NCBI GenBank assembly: GCA_007125125.1
Contig: SLDT01000034.1
Location: 1-58,878 of the forward strand
Length of the DNA stretch: 58,878 nucleotides
From: Gemmatimonadota bacterium
GTDB taxonomy: Bacteria > Gemmatimonadota > Gemmatimonadetes > Longimicrobiales > Gaopeijiaceae
Direction of reading: 5' to 3'
The notes below the pieces were generated by a model. It was given only the letters and a program-made list of their open reading frames with translations. It was not told the origin of the DNA and searched no databases. This document shows positions 37,153 to 53,314 of the stretch, piece by piece. Position 1 is the first letter of the stretch, and every line of letters starts with the position of its first letter. The translations under genes and the position numbers were made by a program.

Positions 37153-37929
37153 TCAGCGCCCCCGCGCGCGTTCCAGGAAGGCGCGCACCCCCGCCCGGCA
37201 CTCCGCGGTGAGCCGCGCCAGCGCATTCACCTCGGCGCCGCGTGCGACGCCTTCGGCCACGGTGGCCTCCTCGATCCCGTAGAGGAGCCGCTTCGTGAGC
37301 CGGACCGCCGAGGGGGGCCGCCGCGCGAGCTCGCGGGCGAGGGCGAGGACCTCTTCCTCGAACCCCTCGGCCGGCAGCACCCGGTTCACGAGCCCGATCC
37401 GCCGCGCCTCCGCGGCATCGATCCGCCCGCCCAGCGTGACGAGCTCGAAGGCCGCACCCTCGACGACCTTGCGCCGGAGAAGGGCCATCACCATCGCCGG
37501 GACAAACCCCAGGTGCACCTCGGGGAAGCCGAACTGCGCCTCCTCCTCGGCGAGGATCAGGTCGCAGGCGGTGGCCAGGCCGCACCCTCCGGCGAGGGCC
37601 CGGCCCCGCACCCCGGCAACAATCGGGACGGGGTGCTCGCGCATCGCGACGAAGAGCCGCCCCATCCGCCCCGCGTCGTCGAGCGAGGCCTCCGGTCCCG
37701 CCTCCGCGATCGCCTCGAGCTCCGCGAGGTCGGCACCCGAGCAGAAGTCCTTCCCCGCCCCGCACAGGACGACTACCCGCACCTCAGGCTCGCGTGCGCT
37801 GGCGGTGAGTGCCTCGAGGAGCGCCTCCACGAGGGCGCCATTCAGGGCGTTCCGCCGCTCGGGCCGGTTCAGGACGAGCTCGAGGACTCCCCCCTCGGGC
37901 CCCTTCCGCAGGAGGACCGGCTCAGCCAT
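37153..37929 (-). CDS. Enoyl-CoA hydratase, methylglutaconyl-CoA hydratase (LiuC/AtuE) type
   Basis: A 258-residue crotonase. Of the two classical catalytic Glu only the second is present (FGFPEVHLGFVPA); the first is replaced by Gly (LAGGCGLATACD), and the usual GGTQRL is replaced by AMVMALLRRKV. As I recall, this combination occurs in bacterial methylglutaconyl-CoA hydratases of leucine breakdown and in the Atu isohexenyl-glutaconyl-CoA hydratase, so the Glu loss does not mean inactivity. The neighbours (carboxyltransferase, AtuA) support that reading. ATG 37929 overlaps the preceding small gene by eight bases. Confidence 0.85.
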   Translation of the reverse strand: MAEPVLLRKGPEGGVLELVLNRPERRNALNGALVEALLEALTASAREPEVRVVVLCGAGKDFCSGADLAELEAIAEAGPEASLDDAGRMGRLFVAMREHPVPIVAGVRGRALAGGCGLATACDLILAEEEAQFGFPEVHLGFVPAMVMALLRRKVVEGAAFELVTLGGRIDAAEARRIGLVNRVLPAEGFEEEVLALARELARRPPSAVRLTKRLLYGIEEATVAEGVARGAEVNALARLTAECRAGVRAFLERARGR

Positions 37930-38314
37930 CGACTGCAACTCCGGGGTCGAACCCGGGCGGGACGCGTCCCCGCCCCCGCACCCGCTCCGCCACCTCGGCC
38001 GGCACCTCGAGCTCCATCCGGAGGAGCGCCGTCGAGAGCACCTTCCCCTGCGCATCCGTCATGAGCGAGACCGTGCCCCCGCCTCCGAGCGCGCCGTGCA
38101 GGAGAAAGTTCAGGGCATGGAGGTTCGGGAGTTCGAAGCGCTCGACCTCGCCCTTCACGAGGGGCCCGAAGTGCTCGCGCACCCTCTCCGGGGTGAGCGC
38201 GCCACGCACGAGCTCCCAGTCCCGGGGGTCGTAGACCGCCACCCCCACATTCGCGGTGTCGCCCTTGTCGCCCGAGCGGGCGTGGGCCACGTCGACGAGC
38301 TGGACCTTCGGCAT
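37922..38314 (-). CDS. AtuA C-terminal domain as a separate small protein
   Basis: A 130-residue protein corresponding to the C-terminal domain that is fused to AtuA in Pseudomonas. Signature segments are VDVAHARSGDKGDTANVGVA near the start and ALNFLLHGALGGGG in the middle. It starts at ATG 38314, one base after the stop of the AtuA main-chain gene, so the two chains are made together and probably form one complex. Biochemical activity is unknown. It overlaps the hydratase start by eight bases. Confidence 0.85.
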   Translation of the reverse strand: MPKVQLVDVAHARSGDKGDTANVGVAVYDPRDWELVRGALTPERVREHFGPLVKGEVERFELPNLHALNFLLHGALGGGGTVSLMTDAQGKVLSTALLRMELEVPAEVAERVRGRGRVPPGFDPGVAVDG

Positions 38315-38315
38315 C

Positions 38316-39707
38316 TCAGACCTCCAGGATCCGGACATTCAGGTGGGGCTCGACCTCGTCCCTCCGGAGGAGGGCGGGCCAGAAAGCCATGATCTCCTGC
38401 ACGCGGGGCCTTCCTCCCGCGAAGCCGGTCACGCTCGGCGGTCCGGTGAGCACGAGGGGCGCGATCTCTCGGGTGAAACGTTCGACCGCTCCCCGGTCCC
38501 CGCTCCTCACCCCGATCCGGAGCTGGACCTCGGGGAGGTCGGGGGGCGGGGGCCCGGCCAGGTGCCCGTGCGTGCTGTCCCACCCCACGAGCTCGACCCG
38601 GATCTCGTCGAAGGCGAGCCCCAGGCGATCGAGGCGGGCGCGCAGGATCCGCTCCGCCGCCCGTGCCTTCGCCGCCGCATCGGGCCAGGCATAGACGAGC
38701 GTCCCGACCGCCTTGTAGCCATCGGCGTATGCGATCGAGACCTTGAGGAAGTCGGTCCGGGCGCTCCCGCGCACCCCGGAGACCCGCACCCGGTCCGGCC
38801 CGACCTCGTCGAGCGCGAGCGAGGTGAAGTCGGCAACCACGTCCGGAGTGATGTACTCCCGCGGATCGCCCATCTCGTAGAGGAGCTGCTCCGTCACGAT
38901 CGCGCGCGTCACCCGCCCCCCGCTCCCGGGGTGCTTCGTGACGACGAAGCTCCCGTCCTCGTGCGCCTCGATCACCGGGAAGCCGACCTGCTCCATCGCG
39001 GGCACCGTCCACCAGTCGACGAGGGCGTTCCCTCCGCTGGCCTGTGCCCCGCATTCGTTGATGTGCCCCGCCACGACGCCCTGGGCGATCCGGTCGTGGT
39101 CATCCGCGTCCCACCCGAACTCGTGCATCATCGGCGCATAGGTGAGGGCGGTGTCGGTCGAGCGCCCGGTCACGATCACATCGGCCCCCTCCTCGAGCGC
39201 CCGTACGATCGGGGCCGCTCCGATGTAGGCATTCGCACTCTGGACACGCTCCCGTATCGCGGCGAGGGGCTCGCCCGTCTCCATGTGGCGGAGCTCGTGC
39301 CCCCCCTCGATCAGCGCATCGAGGCGATCCATGAGGTCGTCGCCGGTCACCACCCCGATCCGGGCTCGTCCCCCGACCCCCGCCGCGCGGCCCGCCTCCA
39401 CGAGCGCCTCCCCGCACCCCGGGGGATTCACCCCGCCGGCGTTCGTGACCACCCGGATCCCCTGCTCGATGCAGCGGGCGAAGATCCGCTCCATGAGGGG
39501 GGGGAAGTCCCGTGCGAAGCCCGCCTCCGGATCACGCTGCCGCTGCTTCTGCATGATCGACATCGTGACCTCGGCCAGGTAGTCGAGCATCAGGTAGTCG
39601 AGGGGTCCCTCCTCGACCTGGCGCACCGGCGCCTCCAGATCATCGCCCCAGAATCCCTGCCCGCTCCCGATCCGGATCATGCGTCCCATCGCCTCGGTCT
39701 GGTCCAT
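38316..39707 (-). CDS. AtuA family protein (DUF1446), acyclic terpene utilization type
   Basis: A 463-residue cytoplasmic protein of the AtuA/DUF1446 family. The start MIRIGSGQGFWGDD, the middle VTNAGGVNPPGCGEAL, and VIVTGRSTDTALTYAPMMHE are characteristic. In Pseudomonas atuA is required for citronellol/geraniol use, but its reaction has not been settled; homologues also occur in leucine and other branched-acyl clusters of bacteria that do not use terpenes. It lies six bases after the carboxyltransferase gene and one base before its own detached C-terminal domain. A role in handling the carboxylated branched glutaconyl-CoA intermediate is inferred from context. Confidence 0.88.
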   Translation of the reverse strand: MDQTEAMGRMIRIGSGQGFWGDDLEAPVRQVEEGPLDYLMLDYLAEVTMSIMQKQRQRDPEAGFARDFPPLMERIFARCIEQGIRVVTNAGGVNPPGCGEALVEAGRAAGVGGRARIGVVTGDDLMDRLDALIEGGHELRHMETGEPLAAIRERVQSANAYIGAAPIVRALEEGADVIVTGRSTDTALTYAPMMHEFGWDADDHDRIAQGVVAGHINECGAQASGGNALVDWWTVPAMEQVGFPVIEAHEDGSFVVTKHPGSGGRVTRAIVTEQLLYEMGDPREYITPDVVADFTSLALDEVGPDRVRVSGVRGSARTDFLKVSIAYADGYKAVGTLVYAWPDAAAKARAAERILRARLDRLGLAFDEIRVELVGWDSTHGHLAGPPPPDLPEVQLRIGVRSGDRGAVERFTREIAPLVLTGPPSVTGFAGGRPRVQEIMAFWPALLRRDEVEPHLNVRILEV

Positions 39708-39713
39708 GTCGTC

Positions 39714-41375
39714 TCAGCGTCCCTCCCCCGGGACGCCGTGCCCCGGGAGGGTGAAGGGGCCCAGGTGAGGCCCCGGATTGTTCATCGCCGTGCGCAGGAG
39801 GAGGGAGAGCGCCGGGCGCACCTCCTCCGGGAGCACGACCTCGTCCACGAAGCCCCGCGCCCCCGCGAAGCGCGCATCGAGCTGCCGCTCGTACTCGGCC
39901 CGCACCTCGTCCATCCGGGTCGTGAGCGCCTCGTCGGGTACGAGCCCCTCGGCACGAAGCCGCTCGATCTGGCCCGAGAAGAGCGCCATGACCGCGCTCT
40001 CTCCCTCCATCACGCCCATCCGCCCCGTCGGGAGGGAGAGGATGAAGTCGGGGTCGAAGCCCTGCCCCGCCATCGCGTAGTAGCCCGCCCCGGAGGCATG
40101 GTTCACCGTCAGGACGACCCGGGGCACCGTTGCCGTCGCCATCGCCTCCACGAAGCGCGCTCCCGCCCGGATGATCCCCGAGTGCTCGGCCTCGCTCCCC
40201 ACCATGAAGCCCGAGACGTCCTGCACGAATAGGAGGGGCCGTCCCTGCCGGTTCATCATCTCGATGAAGTAGGCCACCTTCTCGGCGCTCTTCGTGTAGA
40301 CGATGCCCCCGAAGGTCGGACGCTCCTCCCCTGGGTTGCGTACGAGCCCGCGTGCATTCGCGATCACGCCCACCGGGACACCGTCGACCCGTCCCGTCCC
40401 GCAGATCATCTCGCGCGCCGTGTCGGGCTGGAACTCCTCGAGCGCGCCTTCGTCCAGGATGCACTCCAGGAGCTCGCGCGTCTCGTAGGGCTGCCGGTGG
40501 TCGTCCGGAAGGATGCGGGCCATCTCGCCGGCACCTCGCAGGGGCGGCTCTCGCCCTTCGCAAAGCTCCATCGCGGGCGTGCTTCTCGGGAGTTCCGCCA
40601 CGAGTTCGCGCAGCTTCTCAAGGCACGCCTCGTCGTTCGCCACCCGGTAGTGAGCGACCGCACTCACCTCCGTGTGGATCCGTGCGCCCCCGAGCTCTTC
40701 TGCATCGACCACCTGCCCCGTCGCCCCCTTCACGAGGTTCGGCCCCCCGAGCCCCATGAAGCTCGTGCCCTCGACCATGATGATCGAGTCCGAGAGCGCC
40801 GGGAGGTAGGCCCCCCCCGCGATGCAGGGCCCCATGACCGCCGCGAGCTGCGGAACGCGGAGGTAGCGGCGCATGATCGAGTTGTAGTAGAAGATCCGCG
40901 CCGCGCCGTACTGTCCCGGGAACACCCCCCCCTGGTAGGGGAGGTTCACCCCCGCCGAATCGACCAGGTAGAGGATCGGGACCCGGGAGCGCATCGCGAT
41001 CTCCTGGGCCCGCAGGATTTTCGTGATCGTCTCCGGCCACCAGGAGCCCGCCTTCACCGTGGCATCGTTCGCGACCACGACGACCTCCCGGCCCTGCACC
41101 CGACCCACTCCGGTCACGACCCCCGCCGCGGGCGCCTCGCCCTCGTAAAGGTCGTGCGCCACGAGGAGACCCACCTCGACAAAGGGCTCCCCCGGATCGA
41201 GGAGCCGCTCGATCCGCTCGCGCGCCGTCAGCTTCCCCTGCTGGTGCTGGCGCTCGATCCTCCGGGGTCCCCCACCGGCCCGCAGCCGCTCGCGCAGCTC
41301 GACAAGCTCACGGGAAAGTGCTCCGAGCCGACCCTCGGCGCCCTCCACCGCCGTCTCCGTTCCAGCCTCAGACAC
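39714..41375 (-). CDS. Acyl-CoA carboxylase carboxyltransferase subunit, methylcrotonyl/geranyl-CoA type
   Basis: A 553-residue carboxyltransferase beta subunit that moves the carboxyl group from biotin to an acyl-CoA. Crotonase-fold halves carry [15 protein letters not shown] with [17 protein letters not shown], then [17 protein letters not shown] and [21 protein letters not shown]. The [11 protein letters not shown] form and [13 protein letters not shown] style are those of methylcrotonyl-CoA and geranyl-CoA carboxylase rather than propionyl-CoA carboxylase. The start is GTG 41375, overlapping the mutase small-subunit gene by eight bases; the longer frame lacks similarity. The biotin-carrying alpha subunit is not in the window and must be supplied from elsewhere. 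Next to AtuA and a LiuC-like hydratase, this suggests leucine or isoprenoid acyl-CoA breakdown. Confidence 0.9.
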
Positions 41376-41808
41376 TCTCGTGGCTCCGTTCCGTCTCGAA
41401 CCAGGCCCTGATGTAGGCCACGGCCTCCGTCGTCGGCGTCCCCGGTCCGAAGAGGCGGCCCACCCCACGCTCGCGCAGCTCGGTCATGTCGTCCTCGGGA
41501 ATGATCCCGCCCCCGGTCAGGAGGATGTGCTCGGCTCCCTCCGCGTCGAGGAGCTCACGCACCCTCGGGAAGAGGGTCATGTGGGCCCCCGAGAGGACGG
41601 ACATCGCAACCACGTCGACATCTTCCTGGACGGCGGCTGCCACGATCATCTCCGGCGTCTGGTGGAGTCCCGTGTAGATTACCTCGAAGCCGGCATCCCG
41701 GAACACGCTGGCAATCACCTTTGCCCCCCGGTCGTGTCCATCCAGCCCCGGCTTGGCAACGAGCACCCTGATCCGGCGCTCTCCAGTCTCCTGTCCTGCA
41801 GCGCTCAT
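41368..41808 (-). CDS. B12-binding small subunit of an acyl-CoA mutase
   Basis: A 146-residue flavodoxin-like cobalamin-binding protein, the detached C-terminal domain of methylmalonyl/isobutyryl-CoA mutase. The base-off motif is complete: [12 protein letters not shown], with His25 as the cobalt ligand, then [13 protein letters not shown] and [12 protein letters not shown] lining the nucleotide tail. At 146 residues it is about the size of IcmB of Streptomyces. ATG 41808 begins the conserved region. The large subunit gene lies 770 bases upstream, separated by a HAD phosphatase gene. The stop overlaps the carboxyltransferase start. Confidence 0.95.
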
Positions 41809-41863
41809 CGAAGTCGCGCTCCTGTGCAAGTGATATTGGATTGGCCCGCACCCGCGGACCAGC

Positions 41864-42574
41864 TCATCGGACCGGGCTCGAGACCCCGGCCAGGTGGCAC
41901 GGCAGCTCCCTGACCGCGCGAATTCGCTCGACGGGCCAGGGCGCATGCCCCTCAGGGTCGACGAGGAGCGCGTGCATCCCTGCGCCGCGAGCCCCCACCA
42001 CGTCGACCGGGTAGAGATCGCCAACGTAGAGGCAGTGCTCCGGCGGAACACCTGCCTGCCGCGCCCCCTCGAGGAAGATCGCGGGGTCGGGTTTTGCCCG
42101 CCCGAAGAGTCCCGAGTCGATCACGAAATCAAGCTCTTCGCGCAGGCCGGCCCCGACGAGCGCGCCCTCCATGCGCCCGTCCGCATTCGAGACCACCCCG
42201 ACCCCGAAACCCCGTTCCCGCAGTGTGCGGAGTGCCTCGCGAGTTCCCGGCTCGACATGGGTCCAGAGGTGCTCCCGCGCGTGCTCGTCCCGGAGGCGGG
42301 CACCCACCTGCCGGGCCACCTCACCCGAGGGCACGCCCGAAACCTCGAACAGAATCTCGAAGTATTCCCTCCATAGTTCCGGTTCCGTGCCCTCGTGCCC
42401 CTCGACCACACGGCCGGTGAGGACCCGTCGAGCCTCGACCTCGGCACGGTCGAAGCGCTCCCGGTCCCACATTGCCCCGGCCCATCGGTAGATTTCCCGC
42501 ATCCGTGTGCGGTCGGGAAAGACAAGGGTGTTTCCTGCGTCCAGCAGGACCGCCCGGACCCCGGCCGAGGACAC
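41864..42574 (-). CDS. HAD-superfamily phosphatase between the two mutase subunit genes
   Basis: A 236-residue haloacid dehalogenase-type hydrolase. Motif I reads LLDAGNTLV: the nucleophile Asp is present, but the usual second Asp (DxDxT) is Gly, as in several HAD members of the DxGxT form. Motif [10 protein letters not shown], motif III with Lys in [10 protein letters not shown] and motif [15 protein letters not shown] are intact, and a helical cap lies around residues 20-95. GTG 42574 starts two bases after the large-subunit stop, so it is part of the mutase operon. The substrate is unknown. A housekeeping role, such as removing a phosphorylated or damaged cofactor or CoA metabolite, is only a guess. 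Confidence 0.88.
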
Positions 42575-42576
42575 GC

Positions 42577-44301
42577 TCAGAAGAAGACCGGCTCGCGGAA
42601 GGATCCGAAGACCTCCTCCATCGCGTGCCGAATCTCGAAGAGGGTGCAGTAGGCCCGCGCGCAGTCGAGGATACGGGGAACGAGGTTCTCACCCGAACGC
42701 GCCGCCTCCGTGAGAGCCGAGAGCGTTCGGTCGACCTCGGCCTGGTCGCGCGCGGCCCGGAGGGTGGCAAGCCGCTCGCGCTGCCGCGCCTCGACCCCGG
42801 GATCGATTCGGAGCGTCTCGACCTCGATCTGTCCGGAGCCGTCCGTGTACTCGTTGACCCCGACGATCACGCGTTCCCCCAGCTCGAACTCCTCCTGCTG
42901 GCGGAGCGCCGAGTCGGCGATCTCGCGCTGGAACCAGCCGGCCTCGATCCCGGGCACAACCCCTCCCACCTCCTCGATTCGGTCGAAGATCGACTCCGCC
43001 TCGGCTTCCAGCTCATCCGTGAGCGACTCGACGTAGTACGAGCCCGCGAGGGGATCGATCGTATTCGCCACTCCCGTCTCGTTGGCCAGGATCTGCTGGG
43101 TGCGCAGCGCGATGCGGACCGCCTTTTCCGTGGGAAGCGCGAGGGTCTCGTCGAGGGAGTTCGTGTGGAGCGACTGCGTGCCGCCGAGCACTGCGGCGAG
43201 GGCCTGATAGGCGACCCGCACGACATTGTTCTCGGGCTGCTGGGCCGTCAGCGTCACCCCGGCCGTCTGGCAGTGGGTCCGGAGCCGCCAGGAGTCCGGG
43301 TTCTTCGCGCCGTAGACATCCCGCATGCGTCGGGCCCAGATACGCCGGGCCGCCCGAAGCTTCGCGATCTCCTCGAAGAAGTCGTTGTGGATGTCGAAGA
43401 AGAAGGAAAGCCTGGGGGCAAAGGCATCCACATCGAGCCCGCGCGCGATACCCCGTTCCACGTACTCGAACCCGTTTCGCAAGGTGAAGGCGAGCTCCTG
43501 CGCTGCCGTCGCCCCGGCCTCCCGAATGTGGTAGCCCGAGATCGAGATCGGATTGTAGCGCGGAGCATGCTCGGAGCACCATTCGAACATGTCGACGATG
43601 GCCCGAAGCGCCGGCTCGGGCGGGAAGACCCAGGCATGCTGGGCCTGGTACTCCTTCAGGATGTCGTTCTGGACCGTTCCACGCAGCCGGTCCGGGCCAA
43701 CCCCCTGTTTCTCGGCTGCCGCCACGTAGAAGCAGAAGAGGATGATCGCCGGACCGTTGATCGTCATGGAGACGGAGACCTGGTCCAGGGGAATCCCCTC
43801 GAAGAGGGTCTCCATGTCGGCGAGGGAGGAGATCGCGACACCGCACACCCCAACCTCGCCGAGAGAACGCGGGTGATCCGAGTCATACCCCATGAGGGTC
43901 GGGAAGTCGAAGGCGACGGAGAGCCCTGTCTGACCGTTTCGCAGGAGGTAGTGGTAGCGTTCGTTCGTCTCCTCGGCCGTCGCGAAGCCCGCGAACTGAC
44001 GCATCGTCCAGAGTCGCGTCCGGTACATCGTCGCATAGGGCCCTCGCGTGAAGGGGAACTCCCCCGGCAGCCCCAGGCTTTCCAGGTAGCCCTCGTCCCC
44101 GTCCCGGTCGAGCGGAGTGTACAGGGGACGTATCTCGCGACCCGAGATCGAGGTGAAGGCCGCATCGCGCGTCGGAGTCCCCGCAGCGCCCTCCTCCCAG
44201 CCTTCGAGGCGCGCGCGCAGGAGCTCGAGCTCCCGCTCGCGGCGGCGGATCTCGGCCTCCAGTTCGGAGGCGGGAAGCTGGCTCTCGATCGTCGACATCA
44301 T
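42577..44301 (-). CDS. Coenzyme B12-dependent acyl-CoA mutase large subunit, isobutyryl-CoA mutase signature
   Basis: A 574-residue TIM-barrel subunit of a split acyl-CoA mutase; it lacks the B12 domain, which is encoded at 41368-41808. CoA-site motif [13 protein letters not shown] and barrel motifs [15 protein letters not shown] and [13 protein letters not shown] are intact. In methylmalonyl-CoA mutase Tyr89 (WTIRQY) and Arg207 bind the substrate. Here they are Phe103 (WTMRQF) and Gln221 (KEYQAQHAW), with the same 118-residue spacing. Phe and Gln are the isobutyryl-CoA mutase residues (Phe80/Gln198), and Arg207 is what holds the free carboxylate of methylmalonyl-CoA. I therefore expect interconversion of isobutyryl- and n-butyryl-CoA or a close analogue. 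ATG 44301 (or 44298) follows a promoter-like pair at 44377-44405. Confidence 0.92.
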
Positions 44302-44376
44302 TCTTGCTCGTTCGTGAGGAACGCGACACGCCACCCCGCCACCGAGCGGGATCCGGCGTCCTGACCTGACCCTCTG

Positions 44377-44405
44377 AAAATGCCCCCGACGGGAGGAAGG
44401 GTCAA
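44377..44405 (-). promoter_or_regulatory. Candidate promoter for the acyl-CoA mutase genes
   Basis: On the minus strand TTGACC (44405-44400), exactly 17 bases, then CATTTT (44382-44377), about 75 bases before the large-subunit ATG. The -35 element matches five of six bases; the -10 is weaker. It lies just past the TonB receptor gene and would let the mutase genes be transcribed apart from meaB and the receptor. Confidence 0.4.
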
Positions 44406-44436
44406 CGCGCCCCCCCGCGCAACGACCTCTCCGGCC

Positions 44437-46236
44437 CTACCGCCCGGGGCGGGAGAATCCAAGGTAGAACGCCCGTCCCGGGATTGGATTCCCCGTCAGG
44501 TCCGGGGCATCGGCACCGCCGAGGTTGCGACCGTCGAGGTGAACCCGGCCTCCCGCAAAGGGTGCCTCGAGCCGCAGATCCACGACTCCGTGGCCTGACC
44601 CGCCTCCGAGTCGGGACCGCGCCCCGACCACCCTCGCGCGCAGGCCCCGGGGAAGCTCCCGGTCGAGGACGAGCTGGAACTGGTCGCGCAGAGGGCGAAG
44701 GGCGTACTTCGACTCGACCCCTTCTTCCACATCGGCCTCGAGCCCGAGGGCCGAGAAGCCGGCCCTCAGCCGCGTCGCCGCGTCGACGCGAAGGGTACCC
44801 TCGACCTCGATCCCCCGGAAGCGGGCCTCGTTCACATTCCGCGTGACCCAGCGCGCATCCCCGTCGTCGGCAGGGCGGGCCCAGTCGATCAGGTCGCGGC
44901 TCGTCCGGTCGAAGAGGGTGAGGGCGAGGGCGGCCGCCCTCCCCTCTCCGAGGTGGACTCCCGCCTCGACGGAGCTCGAGCGCTCCGGTCGGAGCTCCGG
45001 GTCGGCGAGGTGGGCGGGGTCCTCGTAGTAGCGCTCGGTGAAGGTGGCGCCGCGGAAGGCCCTTCCTCCCGAGGCCCGCAGGCGGAGCTCCGGCGCGAGC
45101 GGAAGGCTGAGGGCGAGCGAGGGCGAGGTGAAGCCGCCCCACCGCTCGTGGTCGTCGTGGCGGAGCCCCGCGGTGACCTCGAGGCCGCCCGGGAAGGTGC
45201 GAACGAGTTCGGCGAAGAGGGCCGAGCGGTCCTCGTCGTGGTCGCCGAGGGTCGCGCTCCGGAGTCGGTGGCGGGCCACCTCGGCCCCGGCCGCGAAGGC
45301 CACCTCCGCGGGGAGGCGGCCCCGCACGACGAGCTCGCCCTGGAGCTGCGCCGAGGTGTGGAGGTTTCGGTAGATCGAGGGGTCCTCGCGCACGAGGATG
45401 AAGTCGTCGTCGTGCGAGCGCCATGCGAGGACCGGTTCGAGACGAAGGCCCCGCGGACCCTCGCCGCTCCAGGTGACACGGGCAGTACCGACACGGGTGG
45501 TCTCGAACGAGGGGAAGGGCGCGTAGAAGTCCCCCGCCCCGAAGGCGCGGCGCGCACGGCCTCCCTCGACGACGAGCCGCCCGCCCGCAAGGGGTGCCTG
45601 GAGCGCGAGGGTCCCCAGGCGCTGGTCCCAGTCCGTGTCGTCCCGATGGCCGTCGGAGCGCCCCGACTCCGCCGAGAGTTCGAGGGTCACGCCCTCCCCC
45701 AGTGGCACGGCTCCATGGAGCGCGGCGGTCGCGGTCCCGAAGCTTCCTCCCTCCAGCCGGACGCCCCACCCGGCCTCCCGGCGGGTCACGATGTTCACGA
45801 CACCACCGACGGCATCGCCCCCGTACATCGCCGAGGCGGCGCCGCGCAGGATCTCGATCCTTTCGATCCGGTCGAGCGGCACGGTGAGGTTGAGGTCGAA
45901 GTGGCCTGTCTGAGGATCGCTCATCCGGACGCCGTCGACCATGACAAGCACGTGCTCGAACCCCGCGCCCCGGATCGAGAGGTCGGACTGTGCGGGGGAT
46001 CGCGCGCCGACCTCGACCCCGAGGGTCGCCCCGAGGAGCTCGGCGAGGTGGCGTGCCGGAAGGGCGCGGATCTCCTCCACATCGATGATCCGGACCGAAC
46101 GGGTCCGGAGGGCAACGTCGGATGACGCGCGCGACCCGATCACGGGAATCGTGTCGAGGGTGACCTGGGCAGCGGCGGCTCCCGGAAGGAGGAGCGCACC
46201 GAAGACAAGGAAGAGGAGAATGCAGCCCTTCGTCAT
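44437..46236 (-). CDS. TonB-dependent outer-membrane receptor, BtuB-like
   Basis: A 599-residue outer-membrane active transporter. After the signal peptide (ILLFLVFGALLLPGAAAAQ) a TonB-box-like VTLDTIPVIGSRA is followed by the plug around residues 45-150 (AELLGATLGVEV, DLSIRGAGFEHVLVMVDGVR, IERIEILRGAASAMYGGDA) and a barrel of about 22 strands ending in FYLGFSRPGR. Plug wording and size resemble BtuB and other small cobalamin/corrinoid receptors rather than the 700-900-residue siderophore or SusC types. Its ATG overlaps the meaB stop (ATGA), and a B12-dependent mutase follows, so uptake of cobalamin or a precursor is the best guess. No inner-membrane BtuCDF genes are in the window. Confidence 0.9.
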   Translation of the reverse strand: MTKGCILLFLVFGALLLPGAAAAQVTLDTIPVIGSRASSDVALRTRSVRIIDVEEIRALPARHLAELLGATLGVEVGARSPAQSDLSIRGAGFEHVLVMVDGVRMSDPQTGHFDLNLTVPLDRIERIEILRGAASAMYGGDAVGGVVNIVTRREAGWGVRLEGGSFGTATAALHGAVPLGEGVTLELSAESGRSDGHRDDTDWDQRLGTLALQAPLAGGRLVVEGGRARRAFGAGDFYAPFPSFETTRVGTARVTWSGEGPRGLRLEPVLAWRSHDDDFILVREDPSIYRNLHTSAQLQGELVVRGRLPAEVAFAAGAEVARHRLRSATLGDHDEDRSALFAELVRTFPGGLEVTAGLRHDDHERWGGFTSPSLALSLPLAPELRLRASGGRAFRGATFTERYYEDPAHLADPELRPERSSSVEAGVHLGEGRAAALALTLFDRTSRDLIDWARPADDGDARWVTRNVNEARFRGIEVEGTLRVDAATRLRAGFSALGLEADVEEGVESKYALRPLRDQFQLVLDRELPRGLRARVVGARSRLGGGSGHGVVDLRLEAPFAGGRVHLDGRNLGGADAPDLTGNPIPGRAFYLGFSRPGR

Positions 46237-47420
46237 GAACCGGACTCCGTCGATCTGTCGGCCTTCGTGCGGCGTGCAGCGAGAACGCGGGCAGCCTCGG
46301 AGTAGGGGGTCGCGCTTCCGGACTGGATCCGGTCGAGCATCGCATCGGTCGTGGTGCCGGGCGCCAGGAGGCGCCGGACCTCACGCTTCGCCTCCCGATC
46401 CATCACGTCGCGGACCCGGGCGAGCATCCGGTCACGCCGCCGTCGCTCGAGCTCCCCGGTCGCCTCCATGTGCGCGCGGTGTTCCTCGACCACCTCGATG
46501 AGTTCCTCGACCCCCTCGCCCGTCTGGGCGGTCGTGAGGAGAACCCGGGGCACCCAGCGCTTCGGATCGACCTCGGGGTGGGTATCTCCCGTACCGTTCC
46601 CCTCCCCCTTGCGTACTTCAAGCGCACCGGGCGTGCGGGTCGAGGCCGGCCCGTGGTGCCCGGCCCCTGCCGGCATGCCACCGACGCGGAGCTTGAGCGC
46701 CCCCCGGATCTCCCGGACGAGTCGATCGGCACCGGGGCGGTCGGCCTTGTTCACCACGAAGATGTCGGCGATCTCCATGAGCCCCGCCTTCATCGCCTGG
46801 ACCCCGTCGCCCGACTCCGGCACGAGAACGACGACAACGGTGTCGGCAGCCCCCGTGATCTCGAGCTCGGTCTGGCCGACCCCTACCGTCTCGATGAGAA
46901 GTCGCGGAAAGCCGTAGGCATCCATGAGGTCGATGACTTCCTTCGTGGTCGTCGCCAGCCCGCCGAGCGATCCCCGCGAGGCCATCGAACGGATGAAGAT
47001 CCCCGGGTCCGTGGCCAGTTCGTTCATGCGAATGCGGTCCCCGAGGAGCGCGCCGCCCGAGTAGGGGGAGGTCGGATCGACCGCAACGACACCGACGTCC
47101 TCCCCTCCCCTGCGGCAGAGTCGGGCGAACTCCGTGACGAGCGACGACTTTCCCGCCCCGGGGGGGCCGGTGATCCCGACGCGCGCGGCGCTCGGGGGCC
47201 GCTCCCGGAGGAGGTGGTGCAGGAGCGCCTGGAACCCGGGACCCTCGTTCTCGACAAGGGAGATCGCCCTGGCGAGGGCGCTCCTGCGCCCCGCACGGAC
47301 CCCTTCGAGAAGGGTGCGTGCGAAGGTGGGGAGCTCGACGTCATCGGCGCCCTCCCTGTCGGGGAGGGCGGAAGGACCGCCGGCGGGCGGGCGCGGAAAC
47401 GTCGGTTCGGAGTCGGCCAT
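46233..47420 (-). CDS. meaB: MeaB/ArgK-family GTPase chaperone of B12-dependent acyl-CoA mutase
   Basis: A 395-residue G3E P-loop GTPase that gates adenosylcobalamin loading and protects the mutase from inactivation. P-loop GPPGAGKSS around residue 85, VVAVDPTSPYSGGALLGDRI, FIRSMASRGSLGGLA, the switch region LIETVGVGQTELEI, and VVNKADRPGAD as guanine-specificity motif are all present. A C-terminal dimerisation arm follows (HRAHMEATGELERRRR). An insert of about 35 Gly/Pro-rich residues follows LKLRVGG. ATG 47420 begins the conserved region. It is first in the mutase region and overlaps the TonB receptor gene by four bases. Confidence 0.94.
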   Translation of the reverse strand: MADSEPTFPRPPAGGPSALPDREGADDVELPTFARTLLEGVRAGRRSALARAISLVENEGPGFQALLHHLLRERPPSAARVGITGPPGAGKSSLVTEFARLCRRGGEDVGVVAVDPTSPYSGGALLGDRIRMNELATDPGIFIRSMASRGSLGGLATTTKEVIDLMDAYGFPRLLIETVGVGQTELEITGAADTVVVVLVPESGDGVQAMKAGLMEIADIFVVNKADRPGADRLVREIRGALKLRVGGMPAGAGHHGPASTRTPGALEVRKGEGNGTGDTHPEVDPKRWVPRVLLTTAQTGEGVEELIEVVEEHRAHMEATGELERRRRDRMLARVRDVMDREAKREVRRLLAPGTTTDAMLDRIQSGSATPYSEAARVLAARRTKADRSTESGS

Positions 47421-47513
47421 CGTCGCCTTTCGCTGTCGTCGCACATGCCCCGAGGGAGGGGTCGAGCAAGGACGGAGCACTCCCCTGGGCCGAGATTGGA
47501 TCCAGCCGCAGGG

Positions 47514-47542
47514 AATCTCACACCCCGGACACCTGTCGCCAA
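47514..47542 (-). promoter_or_regulatory. Weak candidate promoter for meaB
   Basis: On the minus strand TTGGCG (47542-47537), 17 bases, GAGATT (47519-47514), about 95 bases before the meaB start. GAGATT also pairs with AATCTC at plus-strand 47492-47497 to form a 6-bp hairpin. The spacing is good but the elements are weak. I see no B12-box or other cobalamin riboswitch core in the 139 bases ahead of meaB. Confidence 0.25.
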
Positions 47543-47559
47543 CCCCGAAGCTCCCCGGA

Positions 47560-50235
47560 TCAACCCCCTGCGGGCCCGAGGGACCCGTCTGGTGCCGCCC
47601 TCCACCCACGCACCCCGTCCGAGAAGAGGAATTCCATGGAAGCCAGCTCACCTTCGAGCGCCACCTCGCCCGACCGGAAGAACCCCCGAATCTCACCGGT
47701 CTCCGGATCTCTCGCCACTGCGAGAGGAAGGACGGCCGGATCCCAGCTCAGCCGCTCGACTCCCCCCCCTGCCGGCGAGCTGCGAAGCAGTCGTGCCCCG
47801 GCTGGGGGAGCGTCCGGGAAGGCTCCGGGCCGGACAACGCGGACGGCGGCGCCCCCTGGACCTTCGACCCTGAGTTCGCCAAGAGACGCGAGGGCGCCCG
47901 GATCGAGGGGAATCACGAAGGCAAAGTGCCGTTCCGTGGGGTCGGGTGCGTGCGGCACGGCGTCCGGCTCGAACCGGAAGTCGAAGAGCACCCGCCCCCT
48001 CCGGTCGATCCCGAGGGCCCGGTGCGAACCCCCGGCTCCCGCTGGAACGAGTGCGGGTGCCTCGACCGGGAGCGCGGGCTCGAGCTCGATCCCGCCGGCA
48101 TGGGAGCGCCCCCAGAGAAGCAGGCCCGGACTCGCCGCGACAGCGGGCGTGGCGAGGGTTGGGGTCCCGAAGGGCGCCGCGAGTCGCCAGCGCAGCATCC
48201 GGTCGAAGCTCCTGTCGCTCGGCCACCGGGGCTGGCAGTAGCCCATGAAGTCCCGGTGGCTCGAGGGCGAGACGAGGCGCCCCTGCTGGAGGTCCCATCC
48301 CGGGTAGCCGATCGTGCCCCCCTCCCGGAGTCCTCCATCCAGATCCGGGGGCATCGGATCGCCGCAGGGGGCGTGGCCAAGCCCCATGTTGTGTCCCAGC
48401 TCGTGGGCGACCGTGCCCGCGGCCTGCGGGAGGCGGTCGTAGCTCTGCCCGATTGGCGCCGGACGCGACGGATCGGCCGGACGGTAGGCCACCCCGAAAA
48501 AGCGGCGGGGCAGATCCGCGGAGAAGATTCCGTGCACGTAGTGGTCACGGAAGGCCGACACCGCCCACGCCGCGCGCAACTCCGGAAGGGCGACAGTGAC
48601 GCGCCCGGAGGCATCGATGAGGTCAAGGTGAAGGGGCGGTCCGACGCTGATCCGGTCGTCGGCCAGGGGAAGCATCCGACGCGTGGCACTCATGAAGTGG
48701 TGCGCGTTCGCCTCGTCGATCCTGCCCTCGAGACCCGAGGCATTGTCGCGCAGGGGTATGAAGCGTATCCGGAAGGGCTCGAGGACCTCGACGCCGGGGG
48801 CGATCCCATCGCGCTCTTTCCCGAGGTGATGGAGTCGGCGGGAGTTGACCCCGATGCGGTGCTCCGGATCGACCTCCGCCTCGATCCGGAGCCCGGGGCC
48901 GATCCAGCTCGCCGGGAGCACGAGCGACCACGCGGGGGTCCCTGCATCGCTCGTGACTTCGGCCGGGGTGGTCTCGAGGAAGGCCGGTGGTGCAAGGAGG
49001 GTGTCGATCACCTGGCCCCCGGGGAGGTGCAGGCGCGCCCGGACATCCGGGAGCGGCCCCGCCGCCCGGGAAGCCGAAACCCAGACGCGAAGGAGCCCCG
49101 GACGTCCGGCGACGAGGGGAATCTCGCCCGACATCGTCTGGCTCCCCTGGTTCACGTGTGCACCTTCGACACGGAAGTGGAACCCCTCCGGAGGCAGGGC
49201 CGGGTCGGCGAGAGGGACCTCGAGGCGTTGGGCGGGGAGTCCTTCCGGGCGGGCCTCGAGTCGTTGTGGGGCCGGCCCCGATCCGAGGGTCCAGCGACCG
49301 GGCCGGGCGAGGCCGTCCCCACCCGTGGCGAGGTCGGGCTCGACGAGGAATCCTTCGCCCGACAGGACCTCGAAGCGGACGGGATGCCCGGGAACCGGAT
49401 TCCCATGGACGTCCGTCACAAGGAGCGCCGGGTCACCCGGGACGAAGAGCCCGGCATCGACGGCCCCTTCGAACTCCAAACGCCAGACAGCCCCCGCGGC
49501 GGGGCCCGCCACGACCTCGATATGGAGTCGCTGCACCACATCGTCGCCCACCGAGGCCATGAGCGTATGGACCCCCACCGTGGTCCCGGCCTCCCAGGCT
49601 GGAAGCGATGCCTCGCCCTCGTCGTCGGTCAGGACGAGGGACCTTGCGAGCGTTCCCCCTCCGGTCACTGAGAGCTGGACCTCGGCCCCCGGAACACGGT
49701 GACCGAAGCGATCCCGCACCAGGATCCGCGGAAGCCCCCGGACCTCGTCGCCCGCTTCGATCCGATTCGGTGCGGGTCCGACGAAGGAGAGGCTCCCGGG
49801 TGTGCCGGGAAGGGCCTGCACCTCGACAAAGGCGGGTCTGAGACCGGCAACTCTGGCCTCGAGACGTTGAAGGCCCGTCTCGCGTCCGAGGGTCCAGCGA
49901 GGCACCGTTGCGCGGCCATTCCCATCGGTCCGCAGCGTGCGGCGCTCGAGCGTGGCACCGGGAGTGCTTGCCGAGAGGCTGACCGTGACCCCCGGAACCC
50001 CGCGCCCCTCCCGGTCAACAACCCGGATGGTGATCTCGGCGGTGAAGCCCTCGCCGACCTGCCCATGGTCGAGGCCGGGAGACTCGATGAGGATCCGGTC
50101 CGGAGCCGCAAAGAGGAGGGGCTCCGCGTCCGAGCAGGCAAGGAGAACGAGTGCGAGAACGAGGGCGACAGGCAGCACGAACCCGTTCCGGCCGTGCGGC
50201 CGGTCGGCCCCGCCCCCGTGACGACTCCCCTCCAT
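47560..50235 (-). CDS. Surface lipoprotein metzincin with three Ig-like domains (M66-like)
   Basis: An 891-residue exported zinc protease. The signal peptide ends in the lipobox LVLLACSD. Three Ig-like (Big_1-type) repeats of about 95 residues follow, each with a DREGRGVPGVTVSLS- or DRFGHRVPGAEVQLS-like strand and a PRWTLG/PAWEAGTTVG-like end. A beta domain leads to the catalytic region with HELGHNMGLGH (zinc ligands His611, His615, His621; base Glu612) and DFMGYC, probably the Met-turn. A C-terminal beta-sandwich closes the protein. The HExxHxxGxxH plus Met-turn pattern is metzincin; the layout is closest to M66 (StcE-like) proteases, but I cannot confirm the family. ATG 50235 has GAGGAG upstream. 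Substrate unknown. Confidence 0.82.
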   Translation of the reverse strand: MEGSRHGGGADRPHGRNGFVLPVALVLALVLLACSDAEPLLFAAPDRILIESPGLDHGQVGEGFTAEITIRVVDREGRGVPGVTVSLSASTPGATLERRTLRTDGNGRATVPRWTLGRETGLQRLEARVAGLRPAFVEVQALPGTPGSLSFVGPAPNRIEAGDEVRGLPRILVRDRFGHRVPGAEVQLSVTGGGTLARSLVLTDDEGEASLPAWEAGTTVGVHTLMASVGDDVVQRLHIEVVAGPAAGAVWRLEFEGAVDAGLFVPGDPALLVTDVHGNPVPGHPVRFEVLSGEGFLVEPDLATGGDGLARPGRWTLGSGPAPQRLEARPEGLPAQRLEVPLADPALPPEGFHFRVEGAHVNQGSQTMSGEIPLVAGRPGLLRVWVSASRAAGPLPDVRARLHLPGGQVIDTLLAPPAFLETTPAEVTSDAGTPAWSLVLPASWIGPGLRIEAEVDPEHRIGVNSRRLHHLGKERDGIAPGVEVLEPFRIRFIPLRDNASGLEGRIDEANAHHFMSATRRMLPLADDRISVGPPLHLDLIDASGRVTVALPELRAAWAVSAFRDHYVHGIFSADLPRRFFGVAYRPADPSRPAPIGQSYDRLPQAAGTVAHELGHNMGLGHAPCGDPMPPDLDGGLREGGTIGYPGWDLQQGRLVSPSSHRDFMGYCQPRWPSDRSFDRMLRWRLAAPFGTPTLATPAVAASPGLLLWGRSHAGGIELEPALPVEAPALVPAGAGGSHRALGIDRRGRVLFDFRFEPDAVPHAPDPTERHFAFVIPLDPGALASLGELRVEGPGGAAVRVVRPGAFPDAPPAGARLLRSSPAGGGVERLSWDPAVLPLAVARDPETGEIRGFFRSGEVALEGELASMEFLFSDGVRGWRAAPDGSLGPAGG

Positions 50236-50319
50236 GGACTGGTCTCCTCGGCTGCGGGATGCTCCGGCCGGAAGCCCTACCTGCCGGGCACGGTCCGCAC
50301 CCCACCTGGATCGTGTCTC

Positions 50320-50348
50320 AGAATACCCCTCGCCCCCGGTCATGCGAA
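50320..50348 (-). promoter_or_regulatory. Candidate sigma-70 promoter for the metzincin lipoprotein gene
   Basis: On the minus strand TTCGCA (50348-50343), 17 bases, TATTCT (50325-50320), about 85 bases before the ATG. Each hexamer matches four of six consensus bases. It lies in the 185-base gap after the barrel gene, so the protease gene is probably transcribed on its own. Confidence 0.4.
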
Positions 50349-50420
50349 AGGGGTGTTCCCTCTCCTGCTACCGGGGGAACGCGCAGACCTCACACCCAGG
50401 GGATCACGCCGCGTCGGTTC

Positions 50421-51197
50421 TCAGCTACCCCGTTCGGTCCGTGTCGCCCCGAAGGTCAGCCCGATCGTCCACATCAGAAAGTCCGCGTCGGACCGTCTCG
50501 GGTTGAGCTGGATCTCCCCCCCGGGGAGTTCCTGGATGTCACCTCGGGTCAGGTATTCCCTCCGACCGTTGCGCTGGCGTGCGAGCCCGGCCTCGAGTCG
50601 GACGGGGATCCGTCCCCGCGCGATCGGGATCCGGAAACCCCCTCCCCAGTTCCAGCCCCACCCCCCGTCGCCATAGTTCTCGCTGCTCGCGAAGGGTTCC
50701 TGGTCGCGCGTGCCCTGGACCGAGGAGGTGGTCGAGAAGTAGCTGAACCCTCCGGTCACGGCTCCGTGGAGTTCGAGGAACCCCACGGGCACGACGAGCT
50801 CGGGGCCAAGGCCGCCAACGAAGATGTTGTTCGAGGTCGTGAGGTCGACCGTGATCCGGCATCCAACCGTCTCGCTCAGGCACACCTGCTTCGTCTCCCT
50901 TCCATACGTCATCGCCGCGAATTCGATCCGCAGTCCGAGCCGTCCGGTCTCCTCGAAGTCGAAGCGCACGAAGCCGCGGATCCCTCCCCCGAAGTCGACA
51001 TAGTCACGGAACTCACCCGTCGGTTGGGCGAAGACGAGCCCGAGCCCAAGGTGGAGGCCCGGGGGTAGCTCGTCCTGACCCGCGGCCTGTGCACCAAGCT
51101 CTCCTGGAGGTCCGGCGACCAGGAGGCCGGCGAGCAGGGGGGCCAGAAGGAGGGTGGAGAAGGCCCTCGATGAGGGCCGAAGGTTCTGGAGTGACAT
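50421..51197 (-). CDS. Outer-membrane beta-barrel protein
   Basis: A 258-residue exported protein. After a signal peptide (FSTLLLAPLLAGLLVAGPPG, cut near LGAQA), amphipathic strands alternate with Gly/Asp turns (LHLGLGLVFAQPTGEF, GLRIEFAAMTYG, LELHGAVTGGFSYFS), ending in MWTIGLTFGATRTERGS. The chain length suits an 8-10-strand barrel. Two Cys in KQVCLSETVGCR probably pair in a surface loop. No specific family recognised. The ATG is two bases past the ubiB-type gene stop, so it is the last gene of the phoH-pgpH-ybeY-ubiB transcript. Confidence 0.7.
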   Translation of the reverse strand: MSLQNLRPSSRAFSTLLLAPLLAGLLVAGPPGELGAQAAGQDELPPGLHLGLGLVFAQPTGEFRDYVDFGGGIRGFVRFDFEETGRLGLRIEFAAMTYGRETKQVCLSETVGCRITVDLTTSNNIFVGGLGPELVVPVGFLELHGAVTGGFSYFSTTSSVQGTRDQEPFASSENYGDGGWGWNWGGGFRIPIARGRIPVRLEAGLARQRNGRREYLTRGDIQELPGGEIQLNPRRSDADFLMWTIGLTFGATRTERGS

Positions 51198-51199
51198 CG

Positions 51200-52855
51200 T
51201 CAGCGCGGTGGAGGTCGGATCCCGCGCGCGTGCCGGAGCGGGTTCTCGAGCAGGTGCGTAGGAATGAGAAGGGTGAACAGGAACATCACAAGGGCGGCGA
51301 GGAGTCCGAGCACGAGGAGCCAGACACTCCGCAGGGCGATGAAGAGGATGGCCGAGATCACGGCGGTGGCGGTCGCGAAGACCGAGAGGAGGAGCCGGCG
51401 TGCCTGGAGGTGAATGATCCGCTCCTGCTGTTGCGCGTCCCGCGGATGAACTCGGACCCGGAACTCTTCCCGCTCGACCCGCGTGATGAGGTCTCGCACC
51501 GACCTCAGGCTCGTGATCGCCTCCGTCATGACGTCGCGGGCCATCGTGACCGGCTCCCGCGCCGTCTCCTTGAGAATGTTCGAGCGATGGCGACCGATCA
51601 CGCGCCGAATCGCATGGAGACCATTGAAGTCCGGGTCATAGTGAAGGGCGATGCCCTCGAGAAGCACGGCCGACCGGAAGAAGTAGACGAGTTCCTGCGG
51701 AAGCATGATGGGCCAGGTGTAGAACGTGTCCCAGACCTCCTGGATGATCTCCTGGGCCCGTTGCCGCGAACTCGTCCTGGCCCGCTCGAAGATCCGCATC
51801 ACCTCCGTCGCCGCCTCCCGCACATCGCCGCGCGAGACCTCGGGCGAGATCATCCCGAGCCGGTACATCCCGTTGATCATTCCGTCCAGGTCCTCCCGCT
51901 CGACCGCAAGTGCCACCTGGAGGATGCTGTCCCGTGTCCAGCGCGGGATCTCGAGTGCCATGCCCCAGTCAAGGATTACGATCGCCCCGTCATCCGCGAT
52001 CAGGAGATTCCCCGGATGCGGGTCCGCGTGCAGGAATCCGTCGAGCATCATCATCCTGAGGTAGAGCCCGAGCAGCCGCTCCATGAGCTGCTCGAAAGCG
52101 AGCTCTCCGCGGGCGAAGCGGTCCTGGAGGCGGTCCACCTTCGTCCCACGCATGTACTCCATCACGAGGACCCTCTTCGTCGTGACCGGGTCCAGGACCC
52201 GGGGCACCCGAACCCCGCGATCCCCCCTGAAAGCCGTGCGGAAGCGCTCCATGTTCCCCGCCTCCGCCCGGAAGTCCATTTCTTCGCGCACCCGCACCGA
52301 GAACTCCCGCACCACATTCGTGATACCCCGAACGTGGTGATTCGGAAAGAGGATGTTGAGCCAGAAGAGGATGCGGAACGAGAGGTCCAGATCGAGGGCT
52401 ACCATCTCCTCGACGCCGGGACGCAGCACCTTCACGGCGACCTCCTGTCCGCGGTAGCCCGCTCGATGCACCTGCCCGAGTGACGCCGCCGCCATGGGCT
52501 CCTTGTCGAAGGTCTCGAAGAACTCCTCGACCGGGCCTCCGAGTTCGTCTTCCAGGACGACTCTCAGCTCCTCGAACGGAATGGGTGGCACCCGGTCCTG
52601 CAAGGTGCCCAGAGCCGAGAGATACGGTTCGGGAAAGAGGTCGGCGCGTGCGCTGAAGATCTGCGCCAGCTTGATGAAGGTGGCCCCGAGCCGGGCGATC
52701 GTCGCCACGAGCTTCGCAGCTCGCTCCTCGTGAAGACCCGGCCGCCGCCGCGCCGGGGAGCCCACCAGGAAGAATCGTCTCCGGTCCCGGAGAAAGTAGA
52801 AGAGGAAGGGCGCCAGTGCGACGACAATGCGAAGCCCCCGAAGCACCCGCCTCAC
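51200..52855 (-). CDS. ABC1/AarF/UbiB-type atypical kinase
   Basis: A 551-residue membrane-associated atypical protein-kinase-like ATPase needed in many bacteria for quinone (ubiquinone) biosynthesis or export. The KxGQ-type helix reads FIKLAQIFSARADLFP. The Ala-rich loop that replaces the glycine loop is AAASLGQVHRA, the invariant Lys lies in VAVKVLRPG, the catalytic loop in FLHADPHPGNLL, and the metal motif is DWG in VILDWGMA. Two C-terminal membrane segments (VFATATAVISAILFIAL, VWLLVLGLLAALVMFLFTLL) anchor it. It starts with GTG in a GTGA overlap with ybeY. Whether it serves ubiquinone, menaquinone or another lipid is not shown here. Confidence 0.92.
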   Translation of the reverse strand: MRRVLRGLRIVVALAPFLFYFLRDRRRFFLVGSPARRRPGLHEERAAKLVATIARLGATFIKLAQIFSARADLFPEPYLSALGTLQDRVPPIPFEELRVVLEDELGGPVEEFFETFDKEPMAAASLGQVHRAGYRGQEVAVKVLRPGVEEMVALDLDLSFRILFWLNILFPNHHVRGITNVVREFSVRVREEMDFRAEAGNMERFRTAFRGDRGVRVPRVLDPVTTKRVLVMEYMRGTKVDRLQDRFARGELAFEQLMERLLGLYLRMMMLDGFLHADPHPGNLLIADDGAIVILDWGMALEIPRWTRDSILQVALAVEREDLDGMINGMYRLGMISPEVSRGDVREAATEVMRIFERARTSSRQRAQEIIQEVWDTFYTWPIMLPQELVYFFRSAVLLEGIALHYDPDFNGLHAIRRVIGRHRSNILKETAREPVTMARDVMTEAITSLRSVRDLITRVEREEFRVRVHPRDAQQQERIIHLQARRLLLSVFATATAVISAILFIALRSVWLLVLGLLAALVMFLFTLLIPTHLLENPLRHARGIRPPPR

Positions 52856-53307
52856 GGGTTCTCCGAGGTTTCCATGACCCGCGACACGATCGCTTCCTGG
52901 CGACGGTACATCTCCGACTCCATCCGTGCCTCTCCCTCCGGGTGCTCCTGGCCAAGCACGTGGAGGACTCCGTGGACCGCCAGGCGGACGAACTCCTCCT
53001 CTGCCGGGACCCCTTCGTCACTGGCCTGGCGCAGCGCCTGCTCGAATCCAATGTAGACGTCGCCCACGGGGGGCTCTCCTTCGGCATGCAGGGCAAAGCT
53101 GAGCACGTCCGGAACCCAGTCATGTCCGAGGTATCGAAGGTTGAGGTCGCGGGCGCCGGCATCGTCGACAAAGGTGATCGACAGTTCCCCGCCTTCGACG
53201 GGAATGCCCTCGGCACTGGCTTGACCGAGGACCTCGGCAACCCCCGCGCGAATCTTCTCGAGGGGAAGGCCGCGCCCCTCCGTTCCGTTCAGGCAGACCT
53301 CGTGCAA
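52852..53307 (-). CDS. ybeY: Endoribonuclease YbeY (16S rRNA 3'-end maturation)
   Basis: Single-strand metalloendoribonuclease for 16S rRNA 3' processing and ribosome quality control. The zinc motif AVHGVLHVLGQEHPEGE gives the three His ligands (HGxLHxxGxxH), preceded by VPDVLSFAL and GDVYIGFEQA. A TTG at 53307, seven bases after the pgpH stop, with GAGG at the right distance, gives 151 residues, the normal length. In-frame ATGs exist only inside the pgpH gene and would give up to 190 residues. The GTGA overlap with the ubiB-type gene shows cotranslation. Confidence 0.93.
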   Translation of the reverse strand: MHEVCLNGTEGRGLPLEKIRAGVAEVLGQASAEGIPVEGGELSITFVDDAGARDLNLRYLGHDWVPDVLSFALHAEGEPPVGDVYIGFEQALRQASDEGVPAEEEFVRLAVHGVLHVLGQEHPEGEARMESEMYRRQEAIVSRVMETSENP

Positions 53308-53314
53308 CGCGACC

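Follow-up and report, generated by a model that had tools for sequence, protein, structure and literature searches.

Several BtuB proteins can occur in a single Bacteroides genome, and the BtuBG systems of these bacteria are controlled by riboswitches and paired with a BtuG lipoprotein (PMC10404256). In contrast, the receptor described here has neither a riboswitch nor a BtuG partner. With BtuB of E. coli it shares a small TonB-dependent barrel (599 aa for the receptor, 614 aa for BtuB), a TonB box, the fold and similarity in the plug, yet it belongs to another clade with motifs of its own, lacks a riboswitch and the calcium-site aspartates, and scores below the TIGR01779 cut-off. Plug and fold resemble the catecholate receptors CirA and FepA at the level seen for BtuB; however, CirA and FepA form a separate clade (support 100), and siderophore genes were not seen near the receptor. 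Stand-alone TonB receptors of Bacteroidota (L079-L085, L087) fall in the same clade (support 99), nearly all carry QTGH and FGAxxFY and likewise lack a riboswitch, but they are 25-30% identical to the receptor and do not lie beside B12 genes.

The window is the whole 58,878-nucleotide stretch of a Gemmatimonadota bacterium that was analysed, and all genes of the receptor, meaB and mutase locus lie on its minus strand (Table 1). A sequence-only reading of the window described the receptor gene as translationally coupled to meaB and as part of an operon for a B12 enzyme. Both the coupling and the layout hold: the receptor ATG (46236-46234) and the meaB TGA (46235-46233) overlap within an ATGA, and 135 bases separate the receptor stop from the mutase ATG (44301). 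The plug (PF07715, 86.9 bits) and the barrel (PF00593, 95.6 bits) both exceed the curated Pfam cut-offs. In the ortholog alignment an LDTLxV segment, judged by eye to be the TonB box, is conserved directly after the signal peptide. Additionally, the loop segments are strongly conserved across orthologs, which speaks for what would be one specific ligand throughout the family.

Table 1. Coordinates of the receptor gene, its operon and the upstream kinase gene in the window.
Feature	Coordinates	Strand	Remarks
TonB-dependent receptor	44437..46236	-	599 aa; signal peptide, TonB-box-like LDTIPV, plug, barrel
meaB, encoding a G-protein chaperone for B12 mutases	46233..47420	-	PF03308 295 bits; TIGR00750 over cut-off
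ATGA overlap, receptor start / meaB stop	46233..46236	-	
Acyl-CoA mutase large subunit	42577..44301	-	ICM-like by its pocket residues (Phe/Gln); 2-hydroxyisobutyryl-CoA mutase is the closest relative with a solved structure
HAD-family hydrolase, between the two mutase subunits	41864..42574	-	
ORF with separate B12-binding mutase subunit (last ~147 codons)	41368..42051	-	PF02310, TIGR00640 over cut-off
Acyl-CoA carboxyltransferase	39714..41468	-	PF01039; ORF as listed, real start probably further in
AtuA-family protein	38316..39707	-	PF07287
AtuA ferredoxin-like domain protein	37922..38338	-	PF23544
Enoyl-CoA hydratase/isomerase	37153..38055	-	PF00378; ORF as listed, real start probably further in
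UbiB/ABC1-type kinase gene	51200..52855	-	PF03109; syntenic anchor upstream of meaB or receptor in relatives

The relation of the receptor to BtuB was examined in a maximum-likelihood tree of 96 rows, obtained by a quick search, in which deep branches are moderately supported. Here 27 orthologs form a single clade (support 100), which the Bacteroidota stand-alone receptors join. The BtuB clade (45 rows, support 91) contains E. coli BtuB, Proteobacterial receptors whose genes stand directly behind a riboswitch, and 13 riboswitch-linked receptors of Gemmatimonadota, one of them from the source genome itself (G000:C251, L070 8981-11176). All receptor orthologs fall outside this clade. A topology that groups them with the Gemmatimonadota riboswitch-linked receptors was rejected (p-AU 0.021). 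Sisterhood to the whole BtuB clade was not rejected (p-AU 0.157), and thus a deep kinship with BtuB may exist. The tree and the first of these comparisons also reject the idea that the receptor arose by recent duplication of the local riboswitch-linked receptor. Four further riboswitch-linked receptors of Gemmatimonadota (L166, L168, L171, L172), of a different receptor type, sit outside both groups; therefore, riboswitch linkage alone defines no single clade.

The clade of the receptor is marked by two motifs: the plug carries QTGH, and a barrel loop carries FGAxxFY. Both are present in 34/35 of its rows, including the window receptor, all 26 other orthologs and seven of eight Bacteroidota receptors, and the pair is found in 0/49 riboswitch-linked rows and in none of the E. 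coli references. TIGR01779 (TonB-B12) is the best NCBIfam match of the receptor; it scores 150.8 bits where the cut-off is 599.7 and aligns best within the plug. This cut-off is a weak test for BtuB, as the Gemmatimonadota riboswitch-linked receptors miss it too. The riboswitch-linked receptor of the source genome reaches 221 bits over its full length. Against PRK10641 the window receptor scores 100.3 bits (cut-off 836). The calcium-site aspartates of BtuB, which we take to be those at positions 179, 193, 195, 230 and 241, are missing from the orthologs, where 179 is deleted, 230 is variable, and Thr stands at 195 and mostly also at 241, and they are missing also from the Gemmatimonadota riboswitch-linked receptors. 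In most of the latter (L157-L164, L070) an FPTDGSG-like loop motif replaces the Proteobacterial calcium site.

An AlphaFold model of the receptor (pLDDT 83.9) has the TBDR fold. The nearest solved structures in a fold search were CirA and BtuB, with equal E-values, and superposition on BtuB (1nqe) gave a TM score of 0.79-0.86. Thus the description of the receptor as BtuB-like was right in part: size and fold resemble those of BtuB, but the protein clusters neither with BtuB nor with known siderophore receptors in the 96-row tree, misses TIGR01779, lacks the calcium-site aspartates and coexists with a BtuB-clade receptor elsewhere in the genome. The sequence-only reading had named a grouping with siderophore or carbohydrate receptors as a possible refutation, and the receptor does not show it. 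Judged by these comparisons, the receptor is predicted not to be the ordinary BtuB of the cell.

The other B12 uptake genes of the source genome lie elsewhere. Its one cobalamin riboswitch stands ~40 bases ahead of the earliest start of the BtuB-clade receptor gene. A BtuFCD-like operon (G000:C78), apart from any receptor, contains the only FecCD permease over the cut-off in the genome. The neighbours of the window receptor include neither BtuFCD nor cobalamin salvage genes. At the gathering score the window yielded no cobalamin riboswitch, in line with the sequence-only reading, and a permissive scan of 43000-53500 at E<=5 gave chance matches only, which rules out a riboswitch overlooked there through strict thresholds. 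Similarly, none was found on any ortholog contig or in the eight Bacteroidota loci.

The mutase beside the receptor carries Phe at the pocket Tyr of human methylmalonyl-CoA mutase and Gln at its Arg in an alignment with solved structures (human reference segments RQYAGF for Tyr and ILKEFMVR for Arg). The same Phe/Gln pair is found in the mutases of all linked relatives. We take this pair to be the signature of isobutyryl-CoA mutase (ICM), and no table of ICM and methylmalonyl-CoA mutase pocket residues was found in openly available text. Because of these pocket residues, the operon mutase is probably isobutyryl-CoA-mutase-like and not of the methylmalonyl type. The second mutase of the source genome (L202 3308-4840) has Tyr and Arg, as expected for the methylmalonyl type. 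As in 2-hydroxyisobutyryl-CoA mutase, the large and B12-binding subunits of the operon mutase are encoded by separate genes. Within the same operon AtuA and its ferredoxin-like domain are two genes (37922-39707), and their presence suggests that the operon may serve a branched acyl-CoA pathway.

The survey of the family covered 121 genomes, with orthologs called at E<=1e-40 and their positions matched manually at the level of contigs; many of these genomes are fragmented drafts, in which single absences are uncertain. The orthologs are sharply distinct from the remaining TonB receptors of 98 relatives, and they are present in 29/121 genomes. Among these 29, the full meaB-receptor-mutase triplet occurs in 13, and in four more (G187, G021, G048, G208) the receptor has one partner and then a contig end. 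Together the two sets span ten genera. Adjacency unique to the source genome, which the sequence-only reading had named as a possible refutation when it proposed a search of related genomes, is therefore rejected. Where the gene order recurs in other genera, meaB and the receptor are spaced by -4 to +58 bases, and a four-base ATGA or GTGA overlap is available in G001, G016, G039, G043 and L078. The last of these, Gemmatimonadetes bacterium CSSed162cmA_149, has a receptor of 57% identity, the same kinase-meaB-receptor-mutase order and the four-base overlap. Because gene order and short spacing recur across genera, the meaB-receptor coupling is confirmed as more than chance. No paper describing a meaB-linked TonB receptor was found in the literature.

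The linkage is not universal. In 7/29 ortholog-bearing genomes (G057, G034, G183, G019, G002, G028, G054) the receptor is on one contig and a meaB-mutase pair on another, and in G057, G034, G019 and G018 the kinase, meaB and mutase genes are contiguous without the receptor. In G015 (L195 2090-7771) the same joint between meaB and the mutase is occupied by what appears by eye to be a biotin-synthesis cluster (bioB and neighbours). Five ortholog-bearing genomes (G050, G023, G180, G004, G181) lack an ICM-type mutase, and three of them (G050, G023, G180) also lack MeaB; G004 is a single contig, and completeness is 94-95% for G023 and G050. In G023, G050 and G004 the receptor stands directly behind the UbiB-type kinase gene, which elsewhere precedes meaB. 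Outside this family, in families f2 and f3 of the same order, 11/11 orthologs lie apart from meaB and mutA. The linked state requires at least three changes on the tree. The neighbours of stand-alone orthologs gave no functional clue, being unrelated genes only (by eye prfC, mutS, katG, glycerol kinase and similar genes).

An ICM-type mutase without the receptor was found in at least 64 family genomes, and presence of the two was not significantly associated across the 121 genomes (receptor in 24/89 with and 5/32 without the mutase; Fisher p=0.23). Since the receptor is kept without the mutase and the mutase mostly occurs without the receptor, neither requires the other. The sequence-only reading had proposed a dedicated importer that supplies the cofactor to the mutase. 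A receptor of this kind is possible in principle but is not supported: the receptor is retained without MeaB or the mutase, lies apart from them in 18 other genomes and is missing from most genomes that have the mutase. A mutase-dedicated B12 importer is thus unlikely, because the receptor persists independently and a separate BtuB-clade receptor exists. The tight linkage over ten genera nevertheless suggests some shared need.

Taken together, we favor, as moderately probable, a receptor that is a co-expressed and independent importer of a small ligand of wider use, neither a BtuB nor a B12 supplier dedicated to the mutase. The gene would encode a TonB-energised outer-membrane importer from an uncharacterised family common to Gemmatimonadota and Bacteroidota. 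Given the coupling, its translation would follow that of meaB, and it is presumably co-transcribed and co-expressed with the mutase operon. The protein would be exported, TonB would drive uptake of the small ligand, and this ligand would be something other than a cobamide destined only for the mutase.

The main rival is an accessory corrinoid receptor, that is, a second, riboswitch-free importer of cobamides or their precursors that would be expressed together with the B12 mutase, in addition to the riboswitch-controlled BtuB. We consider this possible, though rather less probable. B12 genes alone recur as neighbours of the receptor, yet at least 64 relatives with the mutase lack it. Size and fold are BtuB-like, yet the protein has motifs of its own and does not fall in the BtuB clade. 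TIGR01779 tops the NCBIfam matches, but far under its cut-off and best in the plug, whereas the local riboswitch-linked receptor matches over its full length. The deep tree does not reject a relationship to the BtuB clade as a whole, and more than one BtuB in a genome has precedent in Bacteroides (PMC10404256), but the lack of a riboswitch in the window, on the ortholog contigs and at the eight Bacteroidota loci argues against this explanation. Persistence without the mutase is compatible with a corrinoid ligand, because B12 may still serve other enzymes in mutase-free genomes. The more specific proposal, a second, riboswitch-free family of cobamide receptors that is separate from the BtuB clade and wired to MeaB in Gemmatimonadota, with outer-membrane B12 uptake following the demand of the ICM-type mutase, seems to us doubtful.

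Import of a siderophore, a metal complex or the organic substrate of the pathway, with the operon position a convenient means of co-expression at an insertion-tolerant joint, would fit the equal plug similarity to CirA and BtuB, the biotin cluster at the joint in G015, the housekeeping genes beside stand-alone orthologs and the AtuA, carboxyltransferase and hydratase genes of the operon, but is improbable given that the 96-row tree places the receptor apart from the CirA/FepA and FhuA groups, that siderophore or iron genes were not seen beside the orthologs examined, and that the single FecCD permease over the cut-off belongs to the BtuFCD-like operon.

Whichever ligand is carried by the co-expressed, independent importer that we favor, the two diagnostic motifs define an uncharacterised TonB-receptor family over Gemmatimonadota and Bacteroidota that is easily taken for BtuB. 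Operon position alone is an unsafe basis for inferring B12 uptake. If the ligand were a cobamide, the family would be one of B12 receptors outside the riboswitch regulon.

Two further features of the locus were observed. Between the UbiB-type kinase gene and meaB, the window encodes a secreted protein that has a Big_1 domain and weakly matches M66 peptidases (47560-50343) and a 258-aa protein without a Pfam match (50421-51197), a stretch that is absent from the relatives examined. Downstream, the position of the HAD-family hydrolase gene between the large and B12-binding subunits of the mutase is kept in several genera (L040, L041, L044, L200, L201).
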